A stretch of 64,000 bases of DNA from Edaphobacter lichenicola (GTDB lineage Bacteria > Acidobacteriota > Terriglobia > Terriglobales > Acidobacteriaceae), in assembly GCF_025264645.1 (NCBI RefSeq), contig NZ_CP073696.1:4030001-4094000 (forward strand), written 5' to 3'. The number at the start of each line of letters is the position of its first letter. Within the stretch, counting starts at the first letter, position 1. This document shows positions 9,470-41,592 of this stretch, piece after piece. The notes below the pieces were generated by a model that was given only the letters and a program-made list of their open reading frames with translations, ran no database searches and was not told the origin of the DNA. Both the position numbers and the translations under genes were made by a program.

Positions 9470-9574
9470 TCCGAGGTCCTTTGCACTTCATTATCTTCCA
9501 AGAAGCGTCACAGGCTTGGGAATTGGAGTAGGTTTCGAGCGGATAGGCATAAGATTGGAGCTTGAGGTGTTCCG

Positions 9575-9838
9575 ATGCTCTATAAAAAGATTAACGTCGA
9601 ACTGATCGTCGTTGCCGACGAGGCTGAGGCAGTCATTGGGGAATTGAACTCCGCGCTCGATCAGATGGAAGAGAGATACACGCTCTTCGGTGGTGGAATC
9701 GAGACGGTTGCTGTCAAACATCCGGGAGCACGGAAGAGATCGGCACTCGCTCATACGATCGCCGCAGGTGAATCCGTTGCTGATGCCCTCAAGGTGGCAC
9801 GTGAGAGCGTCACTACTGCGCTTCGCGCAGTCATCTGA
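9575..9838 (+). CDS. Small conserved-looking hypothetical protein
   Basis: An 87-aa protein without signal peptide or membrane segment, beginning MLYKKINVELIVVADEAEAV and containing ALDQMEERYTLFGGGIETVAVK. The alternating beta/alpha pattern (about two strands and two helices) looks like a small ferredoxin-like or regulatory fold. I have the impression of similar small proteins in other acidobacteria but cannot name a family. It is divergent from the DHA2 exporter (106-base gap) and 136 bases upstream of the CGNR regulator, whose operator lies between them. No strong Shine-Dalgarno is visible (AGGTGTTCCG before the ATG). Confidence 0.65.
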   Translation: MLYKKINVELIVVADEAEAVIGELNSALDQMEERYTLFGGGIETVAVKHPGARKRSALAHTIAAGESVADALKVARESVTTALRAVI

Positions 9839-9924
9839 GCTAACGCAGCTTTCGGGAGATGCTGTTACGTAAGTCTCTCGGCTAGAGGAGATTTTAGAGT
9901 TTGCGCTCCGCGACTGAGGAATGG

Positions 9925-9956
9925 TGTAACCTGTATCTGGATTCAGTAAGGTTACA
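9925..9956 (+). promoter_or_regulatory. Putative operator, TGTAACC-N18-GGTTACA, before the CGNR gene
   Basis: A perfect 7-bp inverted repeat (9925-9931 and 9950-9956) ends 18 bases before the CGNR start codon. The same element with the same N18 spacer recurs before the SDR gene at 10781-10812. The right half-sites are both followed by GC (GGTTACAGC). The identical geometry suggests one regulator binding both sites; autoregulation by the CGNR protein is an inference. Confidence 0.55.
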
Positions 9957-9974: not shown

Positions 9975-10571
9975 ATGAAGACCAAAGCAGTGGAGACAGA
10001 GTACGTAACTTCTCCGATCCCTTCGGTGGGCGATCATCCTGCCATCAATTTCATCAATACCCTTCGTATGATTGGGGGGGAATTGACCGACACGTGGCAG
10101 AGCGATGCAGATGTTGCTGCATGGATCGTTCAGGAGGGATTGCGCGATGCAATTCCTTCAACAACATGGCCGGTTGGCGTCCTGCTTCGCAAGACACGAA
10201 GTTTAAGAGAGCTTGCACTGAGAGCGGTAGAGGCGAGAAAAGCGAAGAAGGCAGTCCCCCTCGATGAACTGAATGGTTTTCTTGAACACTCAGACAGCCA
10301 CTGTGTTCTCCAGGCGAAAACGCGCACGGATATTCAGTTCGAGCGCGTATACGGACAGAAGACGGTTGAACAGTATCTGGCACCTGTTGCCGAGTCAGTA
10401 GCGGAACTGTTGTCGCACGGAGACTTTGATCTGATTCGTCACTGCGAAGGCGCACACTGCGTGCTTTGGTTTTACGACCGCACCAAGGCCCACCGGAGAC
10501 GATGGTGCAGCCCGCAGACCTGCGGCAATCGATCAAAGGTAGCGGCGTTTCGAGCACGTGCCAAGGAGTGA
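9975..10571 (+). CDS. CGNR zinc-finger protein, putative transcriptional regulator
   Basis: A 198-aa protein of the ABATE/CGNR class. The N-terminal half (about 20-140) is helical and contains the DHPAINFINTL motif typical of this family. The C-terminus has the zinc finger: Cys157, Cys162, WFYDRTKAHRRRWC (Cys178), then CGNR (183-186) and a basic tail KVAAFRARAKE. Family members are regarded as putative stress-related regulators with a ligand-sensing N-terminal part; the ligand is unknown. The gene lies 19 bases behind an inverted repeat that is duplicated in front of the following SDR-RidA-nitronate monooxygenase genes, so it probably controls itself and that operon. A GGGGG purine tract sits just before the ATG (ACAGGGGGCCAAATG). 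Confidence 0.88.
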   Translation: MKTKAVETEYVTSPIPSVGDHPAINFINTLRMIGGELTDTWQSDADVAAWIVQEGLRDAIPSTTWPVGVLLRKTRSLRELALRAVEARKAKKAVPLDELNGFLEHSDSHCVLQAKTRTDIQFERVYGQKTVEQYLAPVAESVAELLSHGDFDLIRHCEGAHCVLWFYDRTKAHRRRWCSPQTCGNRSKVAAFRARAKE

Positions 10572-10866: not shown

Positions 10867-11589
10867 ATGGAAAACAAAAAGACAGTGATCGTAACCGGTG
10901 CGTCCCAAGGTATCGGAGCAGCGATTGTTCAGGCGTTTCTGGACCGCGGCTACAACGTAGTTGCAACGTCACGCAGCGTCTCCAAAGCCGGCTTCGCGCC
11001 GTCGCCTAAACTCGCAATCGTCGACGGAGACATCAGCCAGGCGGCAACGGCAGAGAAGGTCGTAAAGGCTGCGATCGAGAAGTTTGGCTCGGTCGACCAT
11101 GTTGTCAACAATGCAGGCATTTTTGCAGCGAAGCCTTTCACGGATTTCACCATTGAGGATTTCCGCGGTCTCGTCGCCACCAACCTGGAGGGATTCCTCT
11201 TCATTACCCAGGCTGCGGTCAAGCAGATGCTCTCGCAGGGCACCGGTGGCAGCGTGACAAGTATCACGTCCTCGCTGGTCGTAAACCCCATCGCGGGCGT
11301 TTCGGCTTCGATCCCAATGATCACCAAGGGTGGACTTGAGGCGATTACCTTAAGTCTCGCGAGCGAGTATGCGAAGAGTAACATCCGCTTCAACGCGGTT
11401 GCACCTGGTGTCGTCGACACCCCACTCCACACCGGCAACCCGAAGGACTTCATGAAGAGCCTTTCACCCATGGGAACGATCTCCGACGCAAAGGATATTG
11501 CGGAGGCAGTTGTTTATGTGACCGAAGCACGTCACGTCACCGGGGAGGTGCTGCACGTGGACGGCGGTGCGCACGCAGGTAAGTGGTAA
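10867..11589 (+). CDS. SDR-family oxidoreductase lacking the catalytic tyrosine
   Basis: A 240-aa short-chain dehydrogenase/reductase. The cofactor loop is TGASQGIG (10-17), NNAG is at 81-84, and the helix-4 Asn is in LVATNLEG (Asn106). The active-site Lys is in MITKGGLEA (Lys154), but the position four residues before it, normally Tyr of YxxxK, is Pro150. Ser residues of the catalytic region (TSITSS) are present. The C-terminus VLHVDGGAHAG is typical. The Shine-Dalgarno AGAGGAG precedes the ATG. The lack of Tyr suggests altered chemistry, or catalysis by another residue; I recall relatives with a similar ITKGG block. First gene of an operon with RidA and nitronate monooxygenase. Confidence 0.9.
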   Translation: MENKKTVIVTGASQGIGAAIVQAFLDRGYNVVATSRSVSKAGFAPSPKLAIVDGDISQAATAEKVVKAAIEKFGSVDHVVNNAGIFAAKPFTDFTIEDFRGLVATNLEGFLFITQAAVKQMLSQGTGGSVTSITSSLVVNPIAGVSASIPMITKGGLEAITLSLASEYAKSNIRFNAVAPGVVDTPLHTGNPKDFMKSLSPMGTISDAKDIAEAVVYVTEARHVTGEVLHVDGGAHAGKW

Positions 11590-12071
11590 GCAAGAAAGAT
11601 TCGCAGCCGGGCAGAGCAGAACGCCGGCTGCAGGATCTTGGCATTCAGCTGCCGGCCACGCCTACACCGTTAGGTAGTTACGTCGAGACGGTGCAGACGG
11701 GCAACCTGCTCTTCTTTAGCGGAATGCTCCCAGTCGTCGATCACAAGCCGAAGTATATCGGCAGGCTTGGGAAGGAATTCGACGCCGAGGCCGGACGGGA
11801 TGCGACCTACACTGCGGCACTGAATGTGCTCGCTGCGGCCAAGGAGCATTTGGGATCGCTGGATCGAGTGACCCGCGTCGTTCGACTCGGAGTGTTCCTC
11901 GCAACCTTTGGGGATTTCTTCGATCAGCCCAGGGTTGCGGACGCTGCTTCGGATCTGTTCCGAGATGTCTTTGGGATTGAGAAGACATCTGTTCGGCAGG
12001 TAATCGGCATCGCCAGCCTTCCACTTGGCGTGCCTGTAGAACTCGATGTCATCTTCGAAGTTTCAGAGTAG
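11583..12071 (+). CDS. RidA (YjgF/UK114) family protein
   Basis: RidA-type enzymes hydrolyse reactive enamines/imines made by PLP enzymes or oxidases. This 162-aa copy starts at GTG 11583, overlapping the SDR stop by seven bases, which suggests translational coupling. The family pattern is visible: LLFFSGMLP (strand with the G-x-L-P turn), AALNVLAAAKEHLGSLDRVTRVVRLGVFL, the conserved Arg in EKTSVRQVIG (Arg138) and the closing LPLGVPVELDVIFE. Arg138 aligns with the substrate-binding arginine of active RidA. The longer loop around DHKPKYIGRLGKEF places it in the RidA paralogue group rather than the core housekeeping RidA. Confidence 0.9.
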   Translation: MVSKKDSQPGRAERRLQDLGIQLPATPTPLGSYVETVQTGNLLFFSGMLPVVDHKPKYIGRLGKEFDAEAGRDATYTAALNVLAAAKEHLGSLDRVTRVVRLGVFLATFGDFFDQPRVADAASDLFRDVFGIEKTSVRQVIGIASLPLGVPVELDVIFEVSE

Positions 12072-12124
12072 AAGACTTCAGGCAGAGGCGAGATGCTTCA
12101 GCCTTTTGTTTTTGAGGGTTCGTT

Positions 12125-13261
12125 ATGAAACAGGGATTCACCAGTTCATCGCGGCATTGGAATAAGACGCGCCTCTCTGCAACTCTTGGAATTGAGTACC
12201 CGATTATTCAAGGCCCGCTTGGTGGTCTGTCGACGCAGCGGCTGGCTGCAACCGTCTCGAACTTTGGTGGCCTTGGCTCCTTCGGAGCGCATGGCCTGGC
12301 CCCTTCAGCGATTAAGGATGTGATTGCCGAGATTCGTGCCCTCACCCCCAAACCTTTCGCTGTAAATTTGTGGGTCTCGATGGAAGATGAGGGTGCATTC
12401 ACTTCCGGTAGCGAAGCATTTGCACGAAGCCTGAGGCCGATCGCAGAACACATCCAGGCTTTGGGCGGTACACTTCCGACTTACAAGCCTTATGCACCCA
12501 TCAAGTTTGAGGACCAAGTTCGTGTGTTGCTCGATGCAAAGGTTCCCGTCTTCAGCTTCATCGCTGGGATTCCCCCGAAGGAGATCCTCGACGAATGCCG
12601 TGCGCAGGGCATCGTTACGATGGGAACTGTGACGACACCAGACGAAGCTATCGCTCTTGAGCAGGCGGGAGTCAACGTCATCGTCGCTTCCGGCTTTGAA
12701 GCAGGCGGTCACCGCAGTTCTTTCCTGCGTTCCTCCGAGGATTCGCTTACAGGAACGTTCTCGCTCGTGCCTCAGGTTGCAGACGCCGTTGCTGTCCCCG
12801 TGGTTGCCGCAGGAGGTATCGCCGATGCTCGCGGAGTTGTCGCGGCATTCGCTCTTGGTGCTGAGGGCGTACAGATGGGCACAGTCTTTCTGGCGAGTGA
12901 TGAGTCCGGTGCGAGCGTGCATCACCGCAAAGCACTGCTGAGTGGGAACGCTCGCAGAACAACATTGACCAGGGGCTTTACTGGACGGCTGGCCAGAGGA
13001 ATACATAACCAGTTGATCGAAGAGCTCAATCGCCCCGGAGTTGAGATCCTTCCATATCCCTTGCAGCGAGCGCTCGTGAAAAACCTTGTCACGCTTGCCG
13101 AGAAGGCTGCGAAGCCGGAGCTGCTGCAACTTTGGGCTGGACAAAGTGCCAATCTTTCCCGACAGACCGACGCAAAGACGCTGCTACAGACGTTAGTGAC
13201 CGAGGTCTCCGCGGTTGCCGACTCAGTTGTTCGCTGGAACTCCGAACGAGATAACAGATGA
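12125..13261 (+). CDS. Nitronate monooxygenase (2-nitropropane dioxygenase family)
   Basis: An FMN-dependent TIM-barrel protein of 378 aa. Signatures: PIIQGPLGGLSTQRLAA at the N-terminus (FMN site), GGLGSFGAHGL, SFIAGIPP, then the class I motif ASGFEAGGHR with the putative catalytic His196, and the phosphate-binding VVAAGGIADARGV plus GAEGVQMGT. Such enzymes oxidise alkyl nitronates such as propionate-3-nitronate, a plant and fungal toxin. It lies 53 bases after the RidA gene in the same direction, so a detoxification operon (SDR, imine hydrolase, nitronate oxidase) is plausible. Length is slightly above the usual 320-360 aa because of a longer C-terminal helix region. Confidence 0.92.
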   Translation: MKQGFTSSSRHWNKTRLSATLGIEYPIIQGPLGGLSTQRLAATVSNFGGLGSFGAHGLAPSAIKDVIAEIRALTPKPFAVNLWVSMEDEGAFTSGSEAFARSLRPIAEHIQALGGTLPTYKPYAPIKFEDQVRVLLDAKVPVFSFIAGIPPKEILDECRAQGIVTMGTVTTPDEAIALEQAGVNVIVASGFEAGGHRSSFLRSSEDSLTGTFSLVPQVADAVAVPVVAAGGIADARGVVAAFALGAEGVQMGTVFLASDESGASVHHRKALLSGNARRTTLTRGFTGRLARGIHNQLIEELNRPGVEILPYPLQRALVKNLVTLAEKAAKPELLQLWAGQSANLSRQTDAKTLLQTLVTEVSAVADSVVRWNSERDNR

Positions 13262-13417
13262 TCTGCTTCACGCTGAAGGAATTTACACGACAGATGTGCG
13301 GCCGTAGGTCGTGCTGCTGATTAAATCTCTTCTATAACGATCCCTTTGCCATCGGGCGATGAAAACGCTTGATCCGTTTGAGGCAGCATCCTGTTAGACC
13401 GACGAATCGGAGGAAGC

Positions 13418-13540
13418 ATGCATACGATGAAATCAGCGCTTCGAACCATGGCGACACTCGCAGTTATGCTCACCATCAGCGCGGGAGTGGAAGCTCAGAC
13501 AAAGGAAGAGTCATGGAACAGGTGTCTTATCGCACGGTGA
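13418..13540 (+). CDS. Short frame encoding a signal peptide, out of frame with the hydrolase
   Basis: ATG 13418 is preceded by an excellent Shine-Dalgarno (CGGAGGAAGC) and encodes a 40-aa product whose first 28 residues look like a signal peptide (MHTMKSALRTM, hydrophobic ATLAVMLTISAGVEAQ). It ends at TGA 13540 after overlapping the start of the alpha/beta hydrolase by 28 bases. Related hydrolases, as I recall them, carry such a leader in frame; here it is shifted. Either a one-base indel separated leader from enzyme, or this is a coupled leader peptide. Confidence 0.5.
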   Translation: MHTMKSALRTMATLAVMLTISAGVEAQTKEESWNRCLIAR

Positions 13541-14373
13541 AGATCGATGGACTCTCCATCTTCTACAGAGAAGCGGGGCCGAAAGATGCTCCGACCATTC
13601 TGTTACTGCATGGACTTCCGTCGTCGTCGCGGATGTTTCAGCCACTGTTGGCGCGGCTCGCAGACAACTATCATTTGGTTGCGCCCGACTATCCTGGCTT
13701 TGGACATAGCGATTGGCCCGATCCAAAGGTGTTCGATTACACCTTCGACCATATCGCTTCCGTGATGGACGGCTTCACGCAGGCGCTGGGCCTGTCGCGT
13801 TACACACTTTATATGCAGGACTACGGCGGGCCTGTTGGGTTTCGCATGGCATTGGCACATCCGGAGCGGGTGCAGTCCATCATCGTCCAGGACGCCGTCG
13901 CTCACAACGAAGGTCTTGGGGTGAACTGGGTAACACGACGGGCATTCTGGGCAGACCGGCCTGCTCACGATGAGGCGCTGCGCAAAAACCTGCTGTCGCT
14001 TGCAGCCACGAAGACGCGCCATATCGGAGACGACCCGAAAATTGAGCTCTACGACCCGGACCTCTGGACCGATGAATACGCATTTCTGAACGCGCCAGGG
14101 CAGGCGCAGATTCAAAGCGATCTCTTCTATGACTACCGCACAAACGTCGATGCGTATCCAAAGTGGCAGACATGGATGCAGAAGACACAGCCGAAACTTT
14201 TGGTCCTATGGGGCAAGCACGATCTCTCATTCGATATTGGCGAACCGGAACGTTACCGTAAAGACGTGCCGAACGCAGAGGTCTATGTTCTCGATGCGGG
14301 ACACTTCGCACTTGATATCAAAGCGGACGAGATTGCGGCGTTGATCCGTGAATTTATGGAGAAACAAAAGTAA
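13513..14373 (+). CDS. Alpha/beta hydrolase with aspartate nucleophile (haloalkane dehalogenase/epoxide hydrolase-like)
   Basis: A 286-aa alpha/beta fold hydrolase. The oxyanion motif is LLHGLPSSS (33-ish), the nucleophile elbow is MQDYGGPVG with Asp103 rather than Ser (as in haloalkane dehalogenases and epoxide hydrolases), and the catalytic His264 is in DAGHFALD. The strand after the cap, LLVLWGKHDLSF, supplies the acid. The chosen ATG 13513 has GGAAGAG upstream. The frame stays open upstream to 13369, but the strong upstream ribosome site drives a different frame coding a signal peptide, so the original protein may have been exported. It follows the nitronate monooxygenase by about 250 bases. 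Confidence 0.88.
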   Translation: MEQVSYRTVKIDGLSIFYREAGPKDAPTILLLHGLPSSSRMFQPLLARLADNYHLVAPDYPGFGHSDWPDPKVFDYTFDHIASVMDGFTQALGLSRYTLYMQDYGGPVGFRMALAHPERVQSIIVQDAVAHNEGLGVNWVTRRAFWADRPAHDEALRKNLLSLAATKTRHIGDDPKIELYDPDLWTDEYAFLNAPGQAQIQSDLFYDYRTNVDAYPKWQTWMQKTQPKLLVLWGKHDLSFDIGEPERYRKDVPNAEVYVLDAGHFALDIKADEIAALIREFMEKQK

Positions 14374-14867
14374 CCGATTCGTTCGCGCCGTCGCATGTGT
14401 CCATCACCAGATGATCGATGGTGGGCGGGCGATCGACGGGAGCGGGCGCGCGTTCAGTCGACACAAGATTTTCCCGTCGCGGATGAGAGGCTTCAACAAA
14501 CCGACGCGAATCGGTGAAGGTTCTATCGGCGAGGACCTGGTGGCGAGGTCTGTGATTGTCGAAATGGCGGAGGGTTCGTCGAAGCTCACCGATGTCCTAT
14601 GTTTTCGATTGACATCGGAAGTTTTATGAGTAGCTTAGTCATACCTCTCTTTTTAGATTTGTAAAGCATCACGTTACCTGGGCTATGGCCTTAACCGGTT
14701 CCCATCTAATTCCAAACTTCTCAGCATCTGTGAGGAGTACGACCGCTACCTCGAAATTGTTCAGCCTTAGTCGAATTTCGTTGTTTTAGCAGAGCACCGC
14801 TCTACACTGCGCAGTCTTCTTCTACACGCAAGAACCACCTTAGCCGATCGTATCGAAAGGGGTTGTG
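14374..14867. other. Intergenic region before the TonB receptor, no gene supported
   Basis: About 490 bases. A 93-codon plus-strand frame (14348-14629) and a minus-strand frame exist but have no ribosome site, unnatural composition and mutual overlap. The second half is AT-richer and presumably carries the receptor promoter; the receptor's Shine-Dalgarno AAAGGGG is at 14855-14861. Confidence 0.5.
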
Positions 14868-17800
14868 ATGAGACGCATAATGATGAGGGCAGAGTGTCCC
14901 AGCTCTGCGGATGGCCTAGCTAACAAAACTTCGTTCAAACAATATTTTTTTGTCATTGCGTTCGCTCTCGCGTTTGTGATCTGTCCGGCCTTGTACGGCC
15001 AGGCTACCGGAAGTTTTTCCGGCACCGTCCTCGATAAATCTGGATCGAGTGTTCCTGGAGCTAGTGTCACCGTCACCTCTCAGGGAACCGGCCTGACCCG
15101 TACCACAAAGACAGATAACGCTGGTCACTACCTGCTTCCGTTGCTCCCCGTCGGCAATTACAGCGTGCGTGTCGACTTAACCGGCTTTCAAAGCGCCGAA
15201 TCCAAAGATCTCCATCTCGATGGAGACCAAGCCCGCGAACTCGATTTTTCCATCGCACCTGCGACCGTAGTATCTTCCGTGACAGTCTCCGGTGACGCCG
15301 TAACGACCGAGACCACGAACCCTTCTCTCGGCCAGGTCATTACCTCGCGGCAGGTATCGCAACTTCCTTTGAACGGTCGCGACTTCGTCCAACTTGCCAC
15401 GCTGACCGCAGGCGCTACTGCAGAGACTAATCCCAACAGCTTTTTCACCTCCGGCACCGATAGCGAGGTGGCCGCGCGCGGTTCGTTCTCTCTGTCGGTT
15501 GGCGGTTCCCGACCCAACAGCACCGATTGGCTTCTCGATGGAGTCGACAATAACGAACTGACGGCGGGGGGAATTGGCGTCTTTTCTTCGATCGACGATA
15601 TCGCGGAGTTCAAGGTGCTCACCTACTCTTATTCCGCGGAATACGGCTCCCGCGCCGGCCCGACTGTGCTGGTAACAACCAAGTCGGGTACAAATAACTT
15701 CCACGGATCTCTCTTCGAGTTCGTCCGTAATACCGCCTTCGATGCTAAGGGCGATTTTGACACGACAACCCCGAAGTTCAATCTGAACCAATTTGGCGGC
15801 TCTATCGGCGGACCGATCCTTCACGACAAATTGTTCTTCTTCGTGGATGGAGAGCAGAAGTATCAGCGTCAGGGAATCACCTTCACCGGCCTGGTTCCTT
15901 CACTGGCCATGCGCAAAGGGGACTTCTCGGCCGACCCCTTCGGTAACAATGTTTCGACAGGCACCAATGGCAGTTTCAATGCCGCCATCGCTAACCCGAA
16001 TATGTTCGGCTCAGCCAACCCTTACTTCCAGTGCGACGCTTCCGGTACTCCAATACCCGCGAACGCCGACGGCAGCCAGGCCGCGGGAACTCCGTGCAAC
16101 AAAATTCCTTCAAACCTGATCAACAACCCAGGCCAGGGACTGCTCAATATTTATCCTGAGCCCAACGCCTCCGGCGGGAGCTACAACTATGTCAACGAGC
16201 CGGTCCGCATCCTGAACGAAACCAAATTCGATATTCGACTGGACTATACGCTCACGACCAAGGACAACCTGTTTGGCCGCTTCAGCTATGACCAGGCGTT
16301 TTCTTTTGCGCCCGGCGGCGCGCCCGGCCTCGCCGAAGCCAATGCCTTCGGCAGCAATGAAAACCTTATCAATCACGGACGCAATGTCGGCCTCGGCTGG
16401 AGCCACGTGTTCGCGGCTAATACACTCAACCAGGCCACCTTCGGATACGATCGCATCTTCAACTACATTGACTCACAGGGTAACTTCACCTGCGGATCGG
16501 CGCTTCTGGGCATTCCCAATGCCAATACCGGCTGCTCGCCTACCGGTACCCCACTTGCCGGAGGATCGTACAGTCAAGGTGTGGTTTCCATTGAGCCCAC
16601 CAGCGGATATTGGTCACTCGGCGACCGTGGCTACTCTCCCTTTCAAGGTGGCACCAATATCTACTCCTTCAAAGACGATCTCGACCTGATCCGCGGAAAA
16701 CACGATATTCACGTCGGCATCGATCTTCGCGCCAATCAGATGAATGTGGGCACAGAAGCCTTTGGATCTGGCTTTCTGCTCCCTGGTGTGACCGGAAATT
16801 TCAGCGGAGCAGGTGTAGCCGCTGGCAATCCCATGGCAGACCTGCTGATGGGGATTAGCGGAGGCGCCATCCACGACCAGACATTCAATGGCGCAGTCAC
16901 CGGCCGCCGCTGGAAGATCGTAAGGCCCTTTGTTGAGGATGACTGGCGGATCACTCCGTCGCTGACCCTCAATCTGGGGCTGGCGTGGGCCATCACAAGT
17001 CCGATCACCGAGGTCCATGACCGGATGGCGAACTACATTCCTTCGACCCAAGAGCTTCAGATTGCAGGCCAAAACGGAGTAAGCCGATCGGCGGGTATCG
17101 ATAGGTTCGGGGGCGCGTACGAACCTCGCGTAGGCTTCGCCTGGAAGGTTCTCGGCAGCGACAAGACAGTGCTTCGCGGCGGCTTCGGCATTTACCACGA
17201 TTCGGTCTGGAGCCAGGGTGCGCAGGGCCTGTGGCAAAATCCTCCCAACCTCGGCGAGACGGATCAATTCGCCGGTGCTGGCTGCGCCTTTGCGACTTCA
17301 TTCTGCGCTGCTAACGGCCAGACACCTTCGGGAACCTTCTTTCTCTCCGACGGCTTTCCCATTCCGCCCACGCCGGGAACTGTGGCCAATTTCCAAGGCA
17401 CGTTCTACTACCAACCGCCCAACTTCCAGCCTGGCAGGGTTCATCAATATAACGTCAACGTAGAACGCCAGCTACCGGGCGATGTTCTGCTCACCGCTGG
17501 CTATGCGGGCGCGGTCGCCGGCCACATACTTGTCAGCGGCAATGCCATCAACGTCAACAGCCCCGATGGTTGCGGAACCATACCCAGCTATACGATCGGC
17601 TGCCTGCCCGGCGGCGCACCCTACATCTTTCCCTACCCCACCGAGAACTTTAACTCGATCATTCTCTTTGGCGATGTGGGAAAGACCCACTACAACTCGC
17701 TGCAGATTAAACGGCAAGCATCATCTATGACCTGCCATTCGGCAAAGGCAAAGCGTTCGGAAGCGACTGGGGTCCTGTGACCGACACGCTTCTCGGCAAC

Positions 17801-18286
17801 TGGCAGGTTACGCTGATTGAAAGGATCTCTTCCGGGTTCCCGGTTCCACTGATCGACAGCAGCAACCAGTCGGGCTCTACCTTCAATGAAGGCGGCAACA
17901 GCTTCAACTACAACCGGCCCGACCAGATTGCCGGCTGCGATACGCACGCAGCAAATCACGGCCACTTCCAGTGGATCAATGCTGCTTGCTTCGCCCCACC
18001 ACCTGCAGGCCAGCTCGGCAATGCCAATCGTGTCCCCGCCACGGGACCCGACTTCGTCAACTCCGACGCGTCACTCATCAAGCAATTTCGCCTGCCCCGT
18101 GAGATGGGCTTAAACTTCCGCGCTGAATTCTTCAACCTGTTCAATCATCCGCAATACGGATCGCCAATCGCCGACATCAACTTCAACTCACCGGCCGCGG
18201 GCACAGTGTCCCCGTTCTTCGGCTCAGTGAATTCAACCGTGAATAATCCGCGCTTGATACAACTTGCCCTCAAACTAACCTTCTGA
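14868..18286 (+). pseudogene. TonB-dependent receptor (Oar/CarboxypepD_reg type), broken by an out-of-frame deletion
   Basis: The first frame (to stop 17780) encodes a signal peptide ending ALYGQA, a carboxypeptidase-regulatory beta-sandwich (GSFSGTVLDKSGSSVPGASV, about 50-135), the plug (QLPLNGRDFVQLATLTAG) and most of the outer-membrane barrel, up to HYNSLQIK. From 17711 the homologous sequence continues in another frame (TASIIYDLPFGKGKAFGSDW), running to the C-terminal strand LIQLALKLTF at 18286. Intact relatives have roughly 70 more residues between LQIK and TASI, so a segment was lost with a change of frame. The product from the first frame would lack the last strands and the terminal Phe needed for outer-membrane insertion, so the gene is most likely dead. 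It would have imported a glycan or siderophore. Confidence 0.88.
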
Positions 18287-18739
18287 GGTTGAGGACGGAC
18301 ATCTAGAAAAGGTGAAGCCTCCGTAGTGGAGGGGGCTTCATCTGTCTGTTCCGCGTGTCATATGACTATTTCCAGTCGTGCGATTCGACTCACAAACCTT
18401 ACTCGATGAGGCTGGTTGGGGTTATATTTGCTACCATCCGCTTTGTGTGAGTGAGCCCAGTGGCACTGGTCGTCTCATAGCCTTTTTTAAAAGGCGTTTT
18501 GTGATCGTGGATTTGTCAGCGGGGCGGGTTAGTCAACAGAAGTACGGGCCCACGTAGAGCGCTCTCGTGAGAGACGAGCCTTGGCTCAGACGTTGAACGC
18601 ATGGAGGACAGGTTATTGTTATGAGTCGTCTCCCGCGCACTCAGAATACGACGTCTATGTAGCAAAGCTAGAACGGCACGATGACAGCGAATCATTGGTG
18701 TGGCCATCCTGCTGCCCAAATGCGATGCGTGATGCTGCT
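18287..18739. other. Intergenic region between receptor and P460 gene
   Basis: About 450 bases between convergent genes. It holds a terminator-like hairpin near its left end (TGAAGCCTCC at 18313-18322 with GGAGG...GGCTTCA to 18340, two-base bulge) that probably ends receptor transcription. A weaker hairpin CTCTCgtGAGAG lies near 18562-18575. I see no credible gene. Confidence 0.45.
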
Positions 18740-19804
18740 TTACCTTTGCCCGTAGGCTGTGAAAACGTAATCTTTTGTCTTCACTGCCGTGTGGCACGCG
18801 AACCCGCACTTGGCGTCGTTCCCCTGCGGCGGCTTGTCACCTAAGTTGCCGAGCCTGAAGTTGCCGGACGCGGCGTCATACTCGAAGACGCCATAACCCC
18901 ATCCGCCGCTGTCCGCGAACCTCTTGCTGTCCTTCACCATGAAGTCAACGTCATGCTGAACACCTGGCACCGTCGGCGCACCGGGTTCACTCGCATCCAC
19001 CTTCGCGACCCAATGGACCTTCGCCATCTTCGCCCCATCTGGAAAGGGCTTGCCGTTGCCGGGAATGCCCGCCTTATAGGCGCTGATCATCGCAGGATTT
19101 CCGAGGATCGCAGCGACCGCACCTCCGTTATGGCTGATGGCGATCACCGGCCAGCCTTCGTATCCTCTGAACTCAGAGAACGCGAGGCCATTCGGTATTT
19201 TGAGGGCGTACTTGTCCTGCGTGGAAGTGACGGATTGTGCCTGGGACGGGACTGCTGTGGGCGCGGAGGTAGCGTTGGGAAGGTTGTGAATGTAATGCGT
19301 AAGCTTCCAGGTGTCGTTGTCGGAGATGGTCGACTTCCAGGCTGGCATGCCAGTGAGGCGAACTCCGTTCTGGATGATCCAGAATAGTTCCGCGTCGCTC
19401 CAGTGCTGCACGTGGGCTGAGGTCAGGTCCATGGCAGGCGGGGCCATATTGCGCCCGATGTTGGTGTCTCCCCGCGCATCCGCACCGTGGCATTGGGCGC
19501 AGGAACCAAGAAAAACTTCCTGGCCCTGGCTTACGACCTCACCCGTCTCAGGCAGCGGGTTCTTCATCTTCCCTGCCTCCAACGGAATGGTGACATCTTT
19601 AGCCGCATTGGCGAGGCTGGTTTCCCCCTGGGAGGGATGCTGACCCGCTGTGCAACCTTGAAGCAAAGCGCCTAGCATTGCACCGATCACGCCGAGCATC
19701 ACTTTGCGTTTTAGCATCACGCTGCGATCAACTCCGCAGCGCCCGCCAATCCTAGGCAAATTTACAGATTCCTTCACACAAGATTCCCTCACACACTCAG
19801 GCAT
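18740..19804 (-). CDS. Cytochrome c / cytochrome P460 fusion lipoprotein
   Basis: A 354-aa protein with two haem sites. A cytochrome c domain (about 85-180) has CAQCH (102-106) and an axial Met in TGMPAW (Met153). The C-terminal domain resembles cytochrome P460 and ends in KCGFACHTAVKTKDYVFTAYGQR-type sequence, with a CxxxCH haem motif. P460 proteins oxidise hydroxylamine or detoxify NO; that role is an inference here. A lipobox (ALLQGC, Cys51) points to a periplasm-facing lipoprotein. The start at 19804 has AAGGAG upstream; a later ATG at 19717 gives a more usual lipoprotein leader but a poorer ribosome site. It lies downstream of the photolyase gene on the same strand, 400 bases away. Confidence 0.85.
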   Translation of the reverse strand: MPECVRESCVKESVNLPRIGGRCGVDRSVMLKRKVMLGVIGAMLGALLQGCTAGQHPSQGETSLANAAKDVTIPLEAGKMKNPLPETGEVVSQGQEVFLGSCAQCHGADARGDTNIGRNMAPPAMDLTSAHVQHWSDAELFWIIQNGVRLTGMPAWKSTISDNDTWKLTHYIHNLPNATSAPTAVPSQAQSVTSTQDKYALKIPNGLAFSEFRGYEGWPVIAISHNGGAVAAILGNPAMISAYKAGIPGNGKPFPDGAKMAKVHWVAKVDASEPGAPTVPGVQHDVDFMVKDSKRFADSGGWGYGVFEYDAASGNFRLGNLGDKPPQGNDAKCGFACHTAVKTKDYVFTAYGQR

Positions 19805-36348: not shown

Positions 36349-36760
36349 CGCGCATGCCGGTGGCGAGTGTATCGCGCAGAAAGATGTCAGTTCAAGCTGT
36401 CTTCTTGGGTGCTGACGAATGCAGACAGGCTTTCCTCGAAGGAGACGAATGTGAGGCCAGTGTTGTCCTCGTCAACTGCCGAGACGGTTTCCATGAACCT
36501 TTGACATCCCCGATCGTCCGCCGTCAGTCTCTGAATCGATCGGCGCTGGTCCGACAAATTCCCCACGGCTATAAACAACTGATATTTTTGCCAGTATCGG
36601 GGGAATCCTCCGGCACATATTCTTTCTGTAGCTATCAGCCACTTCACGGGACGTCGATTGAAGGCAGATTTCCGCCTTCGGAGAACAACGTTCCGAAATA
36701 GCTTCTAGCGACGATCATTCGATGATCCAGCGTTCGTGATGATGCATCTCGGAGGATGAT
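36349..36760. other. Intergenic region before the peroxidase operon
   Basis: About 410 bases. An 86-codon minus-strand frame (36387-36647) faintly recalls the C-terminal domain of alpha-amylase-type enzymes (a phrase LFIAVGNLSDQ), and might be a decayed remnant; it is too weak to annotate. The right end carries the strong ribosome site CGGAGGATGAT of the peroxidase gene. Confidence 0.35.
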
Positions 36761-38575
36761 ATGGAGCGCAGCAAGAATGCTTTCTGGATCAAGGCTCTAT
36801 TTGCCTTGGCGTCGGTGTTTTCCGTAGCGTGGGCGCTTGAGCATTATTCCCCAAAGACTGTTGCAGCTCAGACTTCGCATGATCCCGTTATCTATCTCAA
36901 TCAGGGATGGTCACAGGAGGTTCGTAACAGTTACTACCATATTTCTCAAGGCTCAACTGTCATGCCGTATGACATCTTCCTGAACCTGGAAGTGGCCGGC
37001 AGTGAGGAGTTATTTCGGTCAGATGCGAATAGCGATCGCTACGGTTTGATACTCGAGGCGGCAAATCCGCAGACCAATCCCGACGGCTTGCCGGTAGGAC
37101 TGAGCAAGACCGTGACCGCGGAAGGGCCGTGGAAAGGCGTGGCTGTCGGCTTGACCTGCGCTGCCTGTCATGAAGCAGAGCTGCATTACCAAGGAAAGCG
37201 AGTTCGCATCGAAGGTGGAGTTGGAAATACTTTTGACATTGAGGGTTATTTGTATGCTCTCGACGATGCCGTTCAGGCAACGTTAACAGACTCATCAAAA
37301 TTTGATCGCCTAGCCGCGCGCCTAGGGGCGTCCAGTTCGAACGCCAAGAGCGAACTGCGTCAACGTTTCCAGAAGTCTGCTGATCGCATCCATAGCTACC
37401 GCACTCGTACCCTGGTCACTCCGTCCCCATGGGGACCGGCGCGAATGGACGCTATCGGCTTGATCGTGAACCGAATGACTTCAATCGAACCAGAGATTCC
37501 TGAGAATTGGTCTACTCCGCTCGCGCCTACTAAACCGCCCTTTCTTTGGAACGCTCCGCAAGGATCGTGGACTCAGTGGCGCGGCACCATCCAGGACCCT
37601 ATCCAACGTAACTCCACCGAGACTTTGGGCGTTTATCTGTCCATGAACCTGACTGCCAAGACGCCGGAGCAAGGTCTTTTCGATTCGAATGCTCGCCTGG
37701 ACAATCTCGAGGAGATCGAGGACTGGTTGGCTCACCTCGCGCCCCCCAAGTGGCCCGAAGAAGTGTTCGGAAAGATCGATCGAACAAAAGCCGCGGAAGG
37801 CAAGAAGCTATTCGAGGCTCACTGTGCACAGTGCCACAATTCCTATCCCTACACGTGGACCGAGGCCAACAAATACGGCAAGCGCTTTCTTGAAGTTGGA
37901 CTAGTTCCGCAAAAATATGTAGGAACAGACCCGGGACAGTTTGAAGACCTGCGGCCGTACGCACTGACCGCACAGCTCAGTCCAAATTTGCCGCCACCGC
38001 TTAAAGATAAAGATCTCGTGCCGACAGGCTATCTCTACGTCGCCTTGCAGGAACTCGTTGTTGATACGGCTCTGAAGAAACTCAATCTGACCGAAGGTGA
38101 GGCGGTTAAGATACACGGATACCGGGAATTTCCGCTTGCTCGTCCTTCGGAAGTGCCCCATTACAAAGCAGCACCACGAGATGGCGTATGGGCGACACCG
38201 CCTTTCATGCATAACGGGTCAGTGCCTAGTCTCTATGAGATGCTCATTCCTGCGAAGGAACGAACTAAGAAGTTTTACCTGGGACGAGAGTTCGACCCGG
38301 TCAAAGTTGGATTGGACACCTCAGGAAAATCCGGAACCTTTCTCATAGACACGACGTTACGCGGCAATTCAAATGCTGGCCACTCGTTCGAAAATGCCCC
38401 GCTTGGGAATGGAGTCATTGGCCCTCTACTGACTGAGGAGCAACGCTGGGCGCTCATTGAATATTTGAAGTCGATTCCGGATGAGGAAGGTCGCGTCACG
38501 CCGTTTGGCGGACCGCCAAATGCGAAAACTGGGCATGCTAAATGGGCACAACAGCCTGAGCCTCCGACAAATTAA
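36761..38575 (+). CDS. Di-haem cytochrome c peroxidase-like protein, exported
   Basis: A 604-aa protein with an N-terminal hydrophobic leader (ALFALASVFSVAWAL) and two CxxCH haem sites: CAACH (Cys133-His137) and CAQCH (Cys355-His359). The region TPPFMHNGSVPSLYEML is the typical closing motif of di-haem peroxidase/MauG-like proteins (usually LHNGSVPTL). It is longer than classical CcpA (about 320 aa), with an extra N-terminal domain before the first haem. It should act in the periplasm as an electron-accepting peroxidase or oxidase. It leads a compact four-gene run: 32 bases before the DUF4331-SRPBCC gene, which overlaps the TPR gene, which overlaps the Tat gene. The Shine-Dalgarno is strong. 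Confidence 0.88.
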   Translation: MERSKNAFWIKALFALASVFSVAWALEHYSPKTVAAQTSHDPVIYLNQGWSQEVRNSYYHISQGSTVMPYDIFLNLEVAGSEELFRSDANSDRYGLILEAANPQTNPDGLPVGLSKTVTAEGPWKGVAVGLTCAACHEAELHYQGKRVRIEGGVGNTFDIEGYLYALDDAVQATLTDSSKFDRLAARLGASSSNAKSELRQRFQKSADRIHSYRTRTLVTPSPWGPARMDAIGLIVNRMTSIEPEIPENWSTPLAPTKPPFLWNAPQGSWTQWRGTIQDPIQRNSTETLGVYLSMNLTAKTPEQGLFDSNARLDNLEEIEDWLAHLAPPKWPEEVFGKIDRTKAAEGKKLFEAHCAQCHNSYPYTWTEANKYGKRFLEVGLVPQKYVGTDPGQFEDLRPYALTAQLSPNLPPPLKDKDLVPTGYLYVALQELVVDTALKKLNLTEGEAVKIHGYREFPLARPSEVPHYKAAPRDGVWATPPFMHNGSVPSLYEMLIPAKERTKKFYLGREFDPVKVGLDTSGKSGTFLIDTTLRGNSNAGHSFENAPLGNGVIGPLLTEEQRWALIEYLKSIPDEEGRVTPFGGPPNAKTGHAKWAQQPEPPTN

Positions 38576-38607
38576 GTGCGCTACAGAGAGCTACAGGAGG
38601 ATGGCAA

Positions 38608-40113
38608 ATGTCAGACCACGTAGATGGGCCGCGGTCGATCGGCGATCCATCGATTGACCTCACCGATCTGTTCGCGTTCACCAGCCCCGAAGATCCTAGC
38701 CGCACCGTGCTTGTCGCGAATGTCTTTCCATCCGCGGGAGCCAGCGCAATGTTTTCAAACGTCGTCAACCATTCCATCGTAGTTCGCCGAATGACGGTTG
38801 CGGGGCTTGGCGAAGCTGCCAAATTCAAGCCTGACGATAAGGAATATCGCTTCAACTGTAAGTTCACCGACCTGCAGCGGGTGGCAAACGGCTCGAAACC
38901 TACACAGAAAGGCACTTGCACCTTTCCAAGCGGCCAGGAACTCACATTTGTCGTGAATGACGAAAGAGGAGCGTCTACTCCGGACGGAGTCTTTCGCGTC
39001 TTCGCGGGCTTGCGCTCGGACCCGTTCTATCTCGCGTGGCTCGTCGCGATCCTGAAGAAATTTCCCAATCTGCTAGAACACGATAACGTTCTCTCGATCG
39101 TCATCGATTTCGATACGAAGCAGGTTCTGAATCCCGATAAAGGCCCTCTGTTCGGCGTCATCGCCGAGACGAGTGCAATACCACAACCTCGTACTCTCAT
39201 CGGACATGAGCCTCCGCGCTTTGATTGGGTAGGTCGGCCGGAACAGACAAACATGCGCCTCAACAATCCGGCAATGGAAGGTGCAGACGACGTGCGGGAT
39301 CTCTGGAACCAGATGACTCCTTTTGCGCTCGCAGAAGAATTTCAGCCCATCTTTCGCAAGCGCTTATTGGATAGCTTGACGAATTGGGATATGCGCGATG
39401 GAAAGGCGGACTGGCCCCCCGCGGCGTTGACAGCCGTCATCAATGTCTACCTGGATGATTTCTTATTGTTTGACGTGTCGAAACCTATCAACGACACCAG
39501 CTTTTTTGAGATAGAAAAGAGCACCCTTCACGGACAGCCCTACCAGACAGGCGGCGGTCGCACCGTCAACGCCAACGTTATCGACATCATGCTTACCTGG
39601 ATGGTGAACAACGACCGCGAGTTCCTGCAAGGGGGAGCCACAGGGGCGACGAAGCCGGGATCCAACTCATTTCCCTATCTTGCTTCGCCCAATACTCAAA
39701 TACAGACCGCTGTCGAAAGCGTTGAACTGGCAGCCTCGCCCGACAAGGTGTGGGCGCTTATCGGGGACTTTGGTGCTGTATGGGAGCCATTAGTCGCCAG
39801 CATCATCACCGTTGGCACTGGCGTCGGACAGTTACGTACGATCGAGACGATCGACGGCAAGCGGATCATTGAAAGACTGGAAGCAATTGACAACTCGCAG
39901 AGGTCATATCGCTACTCGTTGATTAGCGGTATTCAGGCCACCGATTACGTCGGAACACTAACCGTCAGTCCGAAAGAACTCGGCAGCTTAGTCAAGTGGC
40001 AGGTGCAATATTGGGCGGACGGCCAACCCGACATTCTTGTAAAGACGATTATCAGCACTCTGCTCAAGACGAGTCTCGGAAGCCTAAGAGAGCGCTTTGG
40101 TGTAACTCAATGA
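38608..40113 (+). CDS. DUF4331-like domain fused to an SRPBCC domain
   Basis: A 501-aa protein. Residues 1-355 resemble DUF4331: the opening SDHVDGPRSIGDPSIDLTDLFAF, then PSRTVLVANVFPSAG, and the closing GGRTVNANVIDIMLTWMVNN. Residues about 370-500 look like an SRPBCC/polyketide-cyclase (Bet v 1) domain: ESVELAASPDKVWALIGDFGAVWEPLV, GQLRTIETIDGKRIIERLE, SYRYSLISG and YVGTLTV. No signal peptide is visible, which is odd for a DUF4331 protein and for its haem-peroxidase neighbour. SRPBCC domains bind hydrophobic small molecules. A GGAGG ribosome site is present. Function is unknown; the fusion suggests a ligand-binding partner of the peroxidase. Confidence 0.8.
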   Translation: MSDHVDGPRSIGDPSIDLTDLFAFTSPEDPSRTVLVANVFPSAGASAMFSNVVNHSIVVRRMTVAGLGEAAKFKPDDKEYRFNCKFTDLQRVANGSKPTQKGTCTFPSGQELTFVVNDERGASTPDGVFRVFAGLRSDPFYLAWLVAILKKFPNLLEHDNVLSIVIDFDTKQVLNPDKGPLFGVIAETSAIPQPRTLIGHEPPRFDWVGRPEQTNMRLNNPAMEGADDVRDLWNQMTPFALAEEFQPIFRKRLLDSLTNWDMRDGKADWPPAALTAVINVYLDDFLLFDVSKPINDTSFFEIEKSTLHGQPYQTGGGRTVNANVIDIMLTWMVNNDREFLQGGATGATKPGSNSFPYLASPNTQIQTAVESVELAASPDKVWALIGDFGAVWEPLVASIITVGTGVGQLRTIETIDGKRIIERLEAIDNSQRSYRYSLISGIQATDYVGTLTVSPKELGSLVKWQVQYWADGQPDILVKTIISTLLKTSLGSLRERFGVTQ

Positions 40114-41312
40114 CCGAAACTCCGATTCTTGAAACTGCACTTCCGCTGGCTACGTCCGGTGATATTGCCGTCATCAACCTGGAGAGTGCACGCGGGCAGA
40201 GCTGGAACCGTTTCCAACGGTATCCGGAACGTCCCGGAGTAGCAGGATACATCGTTGAACAAGAGCAGATGACTCTGCAGTTTCTAAGCGACGCCCGTGC
40301 GCTTGACCGCCTTGAGAGTTTGATCGAACAGCTCGTTCGGACAGGCATCGAACCAACGCAACTCGCGCTTATCCAGGCTCAGGTTGCGTCGACGGCACAT
40401 CGATTTTCTGAAGCGCGGGACTATTTACGGGCCGCTGAAGACTATGGGCGATTGCCTTCAGCCGCCAACCGACTGCTTTTGAGCATCGACCAGGCATGCG
40501 GAGACAAACTCGATACTCTGTTGGAGAGTCGCCGCCAAATAGCCGCCGAGTCCGGACGATTAGAGGACCTCGTACCACTTGGCTCATTGCTCGCGGATTT
40601 AGGTCAGTTCGATGAGGCCGATAGCATCTATAAACAAGCATTCAGGAGCTATCAAGACGTCTCCCCGTTTGCCTTGGCGTGGGTGTGCTTTCAGCTAGGG
40701 GTGCTGTGGGGTGAACTTGTGCCTGAAGTGCAGTCGAGTCGAGCGGCAGACTGGTATCGTAGGGCCATCGAATATGTGCCCAGCTATGTCAAAGCACGCG
40801 TTCATCTATCGGAGATCTATTTGGAAGACCAGTTGATCGGAGACGCGGAAGCGTTGCTCCTTCCGGCGCTGGCATCCGGCGACCCTGAAGTCGATTGGCG
40901 ACTCGCGGATGTGATGACCGCGCAGGGCAGAGCTTCGGCAGGAAAGAAATACTTGGAAAACGCAGCACGCGGTTTCGAGGCGCTTCTCGACAACTATCTA
41001 CTCGCATTCGCGGATCATGGTGCAGAGTTTTATTCTGGCAGCGGCAATGATCCCGGTAGAGCATTGGAACTTGCCGACCTTAATCTCGCGAATCGCCCGA
41101 CGTTGCGCGCTTTTGAACAAACCTACGAGACGGCAGTAGGCGCCGGCCAGCTACAAGCCGCCTCCGAAATTCTGACTGCCGCCACGCTTCGCTGGGGAGC
41201 TAGCCACGCTTTCAGCTTCTCGCCGCTGGCAGAGTGTGGAACTGCTTCCATGGGCGGTTCTGACGCGTTATTAAACGAGTTGAAAGGAGCAAAAGATGAT
41301 AATCGACCGTAG
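40110..41312 (+). CDS. TPR-like repeat protein in the peroxidase operon
   Basis: A 400-aa protein starting at ATG 40110, which overlaps the previous stop as ATGA. The body is a string of helical hairpins with TPR-like spacing (LALIQAQVASTAHRFSEARDYLRAAEDYG; LGSLLADLGQFDEADSIYKQAF; WYRRAIEYVPSYVKARVHLSEIYLED). No signal peptide or enzyme motif is visible. TPR proteins mediate protein-protein contacts; here it may assemble or chaperone the neighbouring gene products, an inference from strict coupling alone. The end of the frame overlaps the start of the Tat-signal gene by 17 bases. Confidence 0.75.
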   Translation: MTETPILETALPLATSGDIAVINLESARGQSWNRFQRYPERPGVAGYIVEQEQMTLQFLSDARALDRLESLIEQLVRTGIEPTQLALIQAQVASTAHRFSEARDYLRAAEDYGRLPSAANRLLLSIDQACGDKLDTLLESRRQIAAESGRLEDLVPLGSLLADLGQFDEADSIYKQAFRSYQDVSPFALAWVCFQLGVLWGELVPEVQSSRAADWYRRAIEYVPSYVKARVHLSEIYLEDQLIGDAEALLLPALASGDPEVDWRLADVMTAQGRASAGKKYLENAARGFEALLDNYLLAFADHGAEFYSGSGNDPGRALELADLNLANRPTLRAFEQTYETAVGAGQLQAASEILTAATLRWGASHAFSFSPLAECGTASMGGSDALLNELKGAKDDNRP

Positions 41313-41592
41313 GTCATTCATACAGGGCGCATCTCTTCTTGCCGCGGGCAATCTTTTCTTCGAGGTCGCGGATGCGCTGGCGTGTGCATCTCCGAATCCG
41401 AGACTAACAAAGACGCAAATGAGTCACGAGACAGATGCACGGTGTGCTTTCAAGGTCGTTGGATGGGAGGGACGCGATCAAAATTCGGTTGACCGCTCAA
41501 AGGTGTTGCCGTCAAATCTCACACTCGCTGATTTAGCCAGCGATGAAGTGTTCATCCACGTCAACCGCGCATGGCGGACCGCTTGGCGATGA
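41296..41592 (+). CDS. Small Tat-signal protein of unknown function
   Basis: A 98-aa protein, ATG 41296, with GAAAGGAGC as ribosome site inside the preceding gene. The N-terminus MIIDRRSFIQGASLLAAGNLFF is a classical twin-arginine signal (D-R-R-S-F-I), with likely cleavage near ADALA-CA. The mature part is only about 65-70 residues, with two cysteines, and ends FIHVNRAWRTAWR. I do not recognise a family. The Tat signal implies export in a folded or cofactor-bound state, or as a partner hitch-hiking with another protein. Its overlap with the TPR gene marks it as the last member of the peroxidase operon. Confidence 0.7.
   Translation: MIIDRRSFIQGASLLAAGNLFFEVADALACASPNPRLTKTQMSHETDARCAFKVVGWEGRDQNSVDRSKVLPSNLTLADLASDEVFIHVNRAWRTAWR

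Follow-up and report, generated by a model that had tools for sequence, protein, structure and literature searches.

A conserved operon joining a RoxA-like di-heme peroxidase to DUF4331-SRPBCC, TPR and Tat-signal partners in Edaphobacter lichenicola

RESULTS

A four-gene operon and its members

We describe an operon in a 64,000-nucleotide stretch of the Edaphobacter lichenicola genome (hereafter the window; RefSeq assembly GCF_025264645.1, contig NZ_CP073696.1, positions 4,030,001 to 4,094,000 of the forward strand), in which four plus-strand open reading frames (ORFs) within 36761–41592 encode a di-heme peroxidase, a DUF4331-SRPBCC fusion, a TPR protein and a microprotein with a twin-arginine translocation (Tat) signal (Table 1). 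An earlier reading made from the letters alone (the sequence-only reading) had described the four genes as a tightly coupled operon, with a 32-base gap between genes 1 and 2, an ATGA overlap (4 bases) between genes 2 and 3 and a 17-base overlap between genes 3 and 4, and both coordinates and spacing are borne out. The operon is real, conserved and undescribed in the literature that we searched, and its relatives identify DUF4331 and TPR as a stable core around which the heme peroxidase is exchangeable.

The ATG at 40110 was taken as the start of gene 3, the mechanical ORF list beginning at a GTG (438 aa). Stretches resembling ribosome-binding sites lie 5–8 bases 5' of the ATG of genes 1 (36751–36755), 2 (38595–38599) and 4 (41284–41289), and scans for promoters and terminators returned chance-level results.

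Table 1. Genes and sites of the operon, in window coordinates
Feature	Coordinates	Strand	Basis
Gene 1: RoxA-related di-heme cytochrome c peroxidase (NF040606), 604 aa	36761..38575	+	NF040606, Pfam
Heme 1 site C-A-A-C-H, gene 1 residues 133–137	37157..37171	+	Invariant in 8/8 aligned rows
Heme 2 site C-A-Q-C-H, gene 1 residues 355–359	37823..37837	+	Cys355, Cys358, His359 invariant in 8/8 rows
Gene 2: DUF4331-SRPBCC (Polyketide_cyc2) fusion, 501 aa	38608..40113	+	Pfam
Gene 2 codons 2–4, Ser-Asp-His; ATCUN-like X-X-His N-terminus if Met is removed	38611..38619	+	Sequence
SRPBCC/Polyketide_cyc2 domain, gene 2 residues 368–496	39709..40095	+	Pfam; PDB relative 3cnw, E 7e-11
Gene 3: TPR protein, 400 aa, ATG at 40110 overlapping the gene 2 stop	40110..41312	+	Pfam TPR_19
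Gene 4: Tat-signal microprotein, 98 aa, C-terminal W-R-x-x-W-R	41296..41592	+	Homologue motifs

Gene 1 had been read as a di-haem peroxidase and proves to match NF040606 over the full length of the model (positions 1–524; 484.5 bits, cut-off 150) and the Pfam family RoxA-like_Cyt-c (50.6, cut-off 26.7), with two CXXCH sites and an N-terminal export signal or anchor, judged, like every presence or lack of an export signal reported here, by eye. Its homologues are 65–70 % identical at six loci and 42 % in Zwartia, and its relative in the PDB by sequence is RoxA (4b2n); a match to an apolipoprotein E3 mutant (6cfe) was taken as spurious. The protein has the features of RoxA and FadCcp, namely the two CXXCH sites, an HNGSVP-type motif and a C-terminal axial His within GNxNxGH, all invariant in 8/8 aligned rows save Val488 (Ile in Zwartia) and the middle residues of the second CXXCH. 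The hemes and the HNGSVP motif are likewise listed for the FadCcp proteins PA2077 and PA2078 in the sections consulted of PMC4496055. By eye, Trp273, preceded by Gln as reported for PA2077, may correspond to the inter-heme W302 of RoxA, and the catalytic distal F317 of RoxA lands on Leu/Met289 or on Tyr/Phe292; HMMER's weak alignment differs.

The two c-type hemes, the HNGSVP-type motif and the GNxNxGH ligand that gene 1 shares with RoxA would suit an operon for fatty-acid or isoprenoid oxygenation, as by FadCcp (PA2077/PA2078) or RoxA, with genes 2–4 as accessories of the gene 1 enzyme. We regard this as quite unlikely, given that the models of the rubber oxygenases RoxA, RoxB and RoxC score only 49.4, 54.4 and 59.9 bits against cut-offs of 900–1000 (a rubber oxygenase was rejected accordingly), that the equivalent of F317 could not be placed, and that the same DUF4331 and TPR core pairs with DyP-type peroxidases elsewhere (see below).

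Gene 2, which the sequence-only reading had called a cytosolic-looking fusion of ligand-binding type, agrees with that description: it matches DUF4331 (PF14224; 102.5 bits, gathering score 27) and Polyketide_cyc2 (PF10604; 52.2 bits, gathering score 27.4), begins with MSDH, has no signal peptide and has no upstream in-frame start. SRPBCC domains bind hydrophobic ligands, and a free X-X-His N-terminus is the sequence requirement of the amino-terminal Cu(II)- and Ni(II)-binding (ATCUN) site. Full-length homologues are 59–69 % identical (49 % in Zwartia). The repeat protein that had been proposed for gene 3 is matched by TPR_19 at a marginal score (25.5, cut-off 25); it starts with MTET and lacks a signal, and its homologues are 52–60 % identical (41 % in Zwartia).

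Conservation of the four-gene set

A lack of co-occurrence of the four genes in other genomes had been named beforehand as what would refute the idea. This refutation fails, for the full set was found at eight loci: the window, Caballeronia glathei (L009), three Variovorax (L010–L012), a Verrucomicrobiota metagenome-assembled genome (L013), Zwartia (L019) and Xenophilus (L020), so that the carriers other than the window are four Burkholderiales genera and the Verrucomicrobiota assembly. Order and strand are the same in seven of the eight, Zwartia having gene 1 downstream on the other strand. Since the set recurs in other phyla, more than chance is at work. A scan of species genomes for the exact peptide patterns WDMRDGK or MSDHVDGP, which is not exhaustive, had yielded 16 loci, among which the four-gene sets were established by tblastn and ORF checks. 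In L013 the contig begins within gene 1; in L021 it breaks off within gene 2, leaving gene 1 and the first part of gene 2. Gene 2 carries an in-frame stop near 11306 in L012 and is frameshifted near 10117–10186 in L017; the counts include both loci, and alignment A4 omits L012 and represents L017 by its downstream part. These broken copies, and a decayed one in L023, may reflect recent loss or draft errors.

A tblastn search of plasmids with gene 2 gave two homologues with at least 80 % coverage and 62–63 % identity, in Bradyrhizobium and Sinorhizobium (matches H4 and H6 were left out of inspection); a TPR homologue lies directly 3' of gene 2 in both, in Sinorhizobium with 58 % identity and the same 4-base overlap. 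Near the window the operon is rare: a full-length gene 2 was found in 0/99 other genomes, two of which matched the SRPBCC part only, and a second, wider survey gave a DUF4331-only relative in 1/296 other genomes. The GH63-like and DUF2490 genes beside the operon were rejected as parts of the system, the other loci being without them, and recent transfer was, despite this rarity, rejected on composition, the G+C content of the operon (54.2 %, against 54.8 ± 1.7 % for 4.8-kb pieces of the window) giving no sign of it.

Two heme peroxidases exchanged around one core

Seven loci from rhizobia and other Alphaproteobacteria (L005, L006, L014–L018) carry the same genes 2 and 3 but a DyP-type peroxidase. 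The L006 enzyme scores above the Pfam cut-off for DyP_N (33.2/27.5) and below it for Dyp_perox_C (17/20), and a GxxDG-type motif, which we take to be a mark of DyP enzymes, was seen in L005, L006 and others. The DyP gene of L018 lies about 5 kb downstream, other genes stand between gene 2 and the TPR gene in L015 and L018, and L023 is a decayed second DyP-type copy in Bradyrhizobium tropiciagri. Overall, a heme peroxidase gene of one kind or the other is present in 16 of 18 loci (L005, L006, L009–L024), and no locus among these or among four distant ones holds both enzymes. Those distant loci, in a Streptomyces (L008), a Rhizobium (L007), a genome of the window's phylum (L004) and one of the Variovorax family (L146), have DUF4331 genes without SRPBCC, and all four also hold DyP and TPR genes. 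The DyP enzymes and the gene 2 and gene 3 homologues are without export signals.

We conclude that DUF4331 and TPR form the stable core, which is combined with either a di-heme or a DyP peroxidase. That heme enzymes can replace each other around it suggests that the core needs peroxidase chemistry, and the swap points to an undescribed oxidation system. Plain peroxide defence by an exported peroxidase co-transcribed with unrelated genes would accord with the heme peroxidase family and with the NF040606 genes that occur without genes 2–4, yet it is very improbable, for the gene set persists across phyla and the core remains in place when the enzyme is swapped.

The TPR tree unites the di-heme loci (91/99) and places the DyP loci outside them, with one change of the peroxidase label. 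The gene 2 tree unites the DyP loci (99/96) and has two such changes. Because DyP enzymes also occur at the distant loci, the simplest reading, although not a proven one, is that di-heme enzyme and microprotein were acquired in a single gain.

Several loci also contain a pair of 2Fe-2S and molybdopterin genes: L005, L006, L016 and L017 (77–90 % identical to those of L006) and, with the molybdopterin gene at 30–33 %, L014 and L020; L010 and L011 have weaker matches that lie further off. Close to some DyP loci there are genes for a CoA-transferase, a hydratase or an aldehyde dehydrogenase. The pair and these neighbours fit the oxidation of an organic compound. An unnamed family of about 170–210 aa, here c5, occurs in one to three copies in each DyP locus with a fused gene 2 (L005, L006, L014–L018, L023) and also adjoins gene 2 in L022 and L024; its copies L006:6944–7561 and 9435–9950 have no Pfam match. 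Two 5-aminolevulinate synthase (hemA) genes, 93 % identical, flank the Sinorhizobium DyP locus (L006:4579–5808 and 17878–19107), and a fragmented hemA lies near the Mesorhizobium locus L017.

The Tat microprotein accompanies the exported peroxidase

Gene 4 had been called a tiny Tat substrate, and RR-x-F is indeed present in all eight homologues (78–101 aa), seven of which have W-R-x-x-W near the end. Pfam TAT_signal reaches 12.5 on the window protein, under its cut-off of 22.7, and was matched in six of the eight at E ≤ 1. The microprotein gene overlaps the TPR gene by 4–17 bases in six loci and is separated from it by a gap in L009 and L013. A microprotein gene is present in 8/8 di-heme loci versus 0/7 DyP loci, so that the microprotein tracks the exported peroxidase.

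A profile made from these eight proteins, which it necessarily matches, found no others at E ≤ 1 in the loci searched. Among 19 whole genomes or records it matched seven, which are the seven other di-heme loci; it had no match in the seven DyP genomes or plasmid records, nor in the genome of the cut locus (G393), and two further weak matches (G383, G392) are confined to the signal part. Nothing was matched on the plasmids. Against the PDB it gave seven weak matches, all at E 0.027 or worse and all to the N-terminal part, presumably to Tat-type precursors. In the Variovorax family NF040606 occurs in 9/299 genomes (Variovorax and eight others). Those eight have no gene 2 match, their NF040606 surroundings (L047–L054) contain no homologue of gene 2, gene 3 or the microprotein, and among the best 17 candidates per genome the microprotein profile matched only Variovorax of the 299. 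The microprotein thus accompanies the combination of di-heme enzyme and DUF4331.

These distributions bear on a tentative alternative to an escort role for the microprotein (see Discussion), namely that it serves the exported di-heme peroxidase as an accessory subunit or assembly factor, while the products of genes 2 and 3 remain in the cytosol and act on the substrate or product once it has been taken up. The microprotein tracks the di-heme enzyme, each of the two has its own export signal, and the DUF4331-SRPBCC and TPR proteins look cytosolic in the DyP loci, some of which have CoA- or aldehyde-metabolism genes nearby. An accessory of the enzyme sits less well with the eight NF040606 genomes in which no microprotein was found among those candidates, and with the classical DUF4331 loci, where a signal is carried by DUF4331 in 23/26 and several TPR neighbours look signal-like, which makes an exported pair the usual state. 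We consider service to the di-heme enzyme and escort as likely as each other.

An X-X-His start and permease neighbours in the DUF4331 family

The family at large was sampled in 33 proteins, from 26 classical loci (L085–L104, L111–L116), the window, L004–L008 and L146, located by Pfam, tblastn or profile searches; the N-termini of the 16 pattern-found loci were excluded from this evidence because exact peptide patterns had found them. All 33 have X-X-His as the likely mature N-terminus, the ATCUN sequence requirement, processing being assumed. A signal-like start is present in 23, and cleavage two residues before the His fits the –3/–1 rule in 22, the rule being applied loosely (A, V, S, T, G, I, L or C allowed at –3). 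The ten signal-less proteins start M/V-[SA]-[DH]-His; six (window, L007, L008, L101, L103, L104) have a single possible start, and for the four with an upstream alternative (L004, L005, L006, L146) the start was picked by alignment, RefSeq starting L005 later.

PF14224 matches 20/119 genomes of the window's phylum, the window's own included, and 6/200 of the Variovorax phylum, where the threshold misses the fused form. The 20 regions L085–L104 come from the former survey, with G173, G107, G171, G125:C357 and the window omitted; they contain no NF040606- or DyP-like gene (L111–L116 were not scanned for them). TPR-like genes adjoin DUF4331 in about 15/26 loci, several recognized only by our own TPR profile or by Pfam below cut-off, and several begin with signal-like stretches. 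In 22 of the 25 other genomes with PF14224 matches, chosen for having DUF4331, a DUF4331 gene is found no more than about 3 kb from 8 of 18 HupE_UreJ_2 matches and from 4 of 13 NicO genes (raw counts, without chance expectation), and in L097 DUF4331, DUF4198 and HupE_UreJ_2 are adjacent. Clusters of DUF4331, mostly with TPR, and HupE_UreJ_2 or NicO were seen in L111, L113–L116, L092 and L097 and in L087 and L098–L100, and the HupE_UreJ_2 permeases in them start with His after the signal. In L115 (about 11250–15000) genes resembling heavy-metal RND efflux of the czcCBA type, judged from sequence starts only, follow DUF4331-TPR-HupE_UreJ_2. In L101 (5905–8396) the gene immediately ahead of a signal-less DUF4331 gene encodes a cytochrome P460 (Pfam, 113.8 bits), which makes a third type of heme protein next to DUF4331, and an alpha/beta hydrolase gene follows.

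In the sections consulted of PMC12537917, HupE_UreJ_2 proteins with His directly after the signal are termed anglerases, DUF4198 and anglerases bind Ni or Cu, nickel binding by DUF4198 is shown, and DUF4331 is not mentioned in the main text. The X-X-His start and the permease neighbours elsewhere suggest a second, metal-linked reading of DUF4331. Applied to the window, the operon would form a system handling Ni, Cu or Co, in which DUF4331 chelates the metal at its X-X-His start and the peroxidase adjusts redox state, as in EfeUOB. In support are the 33/33 N-termini, the permease neighbourhoods with L097 among them, the metal binding by DUF4198 and the anglerases with its N-terminal His, and a HupE gene within 10 kb in 6/15 peroxidase-type loci (window, L005, L006, L009–L020; some contigs end sooner). 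We nevertheless think this unlikely for the window, which has no HupE, HupE_UreJ_2 or NicO homologue at E ≤ 1e-4 (the PF13795 and NicO search was limited to the window), so that the permease link is missing here and metal transport by the operon unproven; no PF04955 gene was found in the window's genome (G000) or in those of L009, L013, L014 and L016, and a predicted cytosolic metal trap beside a DyP enzyme would be odd.

DISCUSSION

A proposed oxidation module in the cell envelope

The picture that we favour, tentatively, is that the operon encodes a cell-envelope oxidation module of a heme peroxidase, a ligand- and metal-binding DUF4331-SRPBCC protein and a TPR protein, with the microprotein as escort. 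The heme peroxidase would oxidize a small, probably hydrophobic molecule using peroxide or O2; the fusion protein may bind this ligand in the pocket of its SRPBCC domain and, probably, a metal ion through the X-X-His N-terminus, and the TPR protein may keep the partners together. In the presumably older layout, that of the DyP loci, all components look cytosolic. In the window's branch an exported RoxA-type di-heme enzyme would have replaced DyP as the peroxidase and the Tat microprotein come along with it. The microprotein would escort DUF4331-SRPBCC, signal-less and already folded, to the di-heme enzyme by way of the Tat pore, possibly together with the TPR protein. The escort, which is the boldest part of this proposal, is modelled on PaoA acting for PaoB and PaoC: the sections consulted of PMC4273604 describe PaoABC as a complex in which the Tat signal on one subunit exports two signal-less partners.

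Several points weigh against this oxidation module. The AlphaFold2 models of gene 1 (predicted local distance difference test score, pLDDT, 39; 8 sequences) and gene 2 (pLDDT 53; 11 sequences) are both too poor to use. The microproteins are poorly conserved (20–36 % identity to that of the window), and where they occur would be explained just as well if they were accessories of the di-heme enzyme. At L022 and L024, which have broken gene 2 copies, no peroxidase of either kind and no TPR gene was found, c5 being present. Of the two trees, that of gene 2 does not resolve the di-heme loci and that of TPR comes with a long-branch warning, Zwartia being a long branch. The genes next to the operon in the window (GH63-like, DUF2490), not being common to other loci, indicate no substrate.

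A wider and somewhat less likely proposal is that DUF4331 is a widespread family with an X-X-His metal site that sits beside TPR proteins and either feeds a Ni/Cu-type permease or arms a heme peroxidase, and that the 98-aa microprotein carries DUF4331-SRPBCC, with or without the TPR protein, through the Tat pore, thereby allowing the swap from a cytosolic DyP to an exported di-heme enzyme.

Of the first interpretation in the sequence-only reading, the conserved, co-occurring gene set held, and modification or transport of a hydrophobic small molecule found no such confirmation. Its suspicion of an undescribed set agrees with our searches of the open-licence literature (5.39 million papers), outside which most subscription papers lie: these found no paper on DUF4331, PF14224 or IPR025566, no description of a cluster of this composition and no paper related to the rhizobial NIPSNAP/DyP/molybdopterin cluster. 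What had appeared to be an isolated operon becomes one branch of a module present in several phyla, with DUF4331 as its core family. Two unrelated heme peroxidases swapped around one core, and a microprotein seen only beside the exported one, offer a natural test case for the joint evolution of protein location and enzyme choice, and the X-X-His start and permease neighbours give DUF4331 its first directly testable chemistry.

Comparison with known systems

RoxA, RoxB, RoxC and the FadCcp proteins (PA2077/PA2078) are, like gene 1, exported di-heme c-type enzymes, of 600–680 aa and with an HNGSVP-type motif, and RoxA has the GNxNxGH axial ligand in common with it; gene 1 differs in lying far under the RoxA/B/C cut-offs and, compared with RoxA and FadCcp, in having DUF4331, TPR and a Tat microprotein as operon partners. 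The DyP loci (L005, L006, L014–L018) share the DUF4331-SRPBCC fusion and the TPR gene beside a heme peroxidase, but have a signal-less DyP enzyme and c5 genes (NIPSNAP in L006), and the Tat microprotein was not found in them. The classical secreted DUF4331 loci with HupE_UreJ_2 or NicO likewise have the X-X-His start and a TPR neighbour, and differ in that DUF4331 is exported and, in some, a membrane permease is present. In the iron-uptake system EfeUOB a DyP peroxidase, which adjusts the redox state, works with a metal-binding protein and a permease; the operon described here is built from other families, and no HupE/NicO-type permease lies in the window. Finally, in the Tat hitchhikers, such as PaoABC and hydrogenase 2 of E. 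coli, with MelC1-tyrosinase as a further example, signal-less proteins are likewise encoded with a Tat-signal partner, although the putative carrier here would be only 78–101 aa long, signal included.

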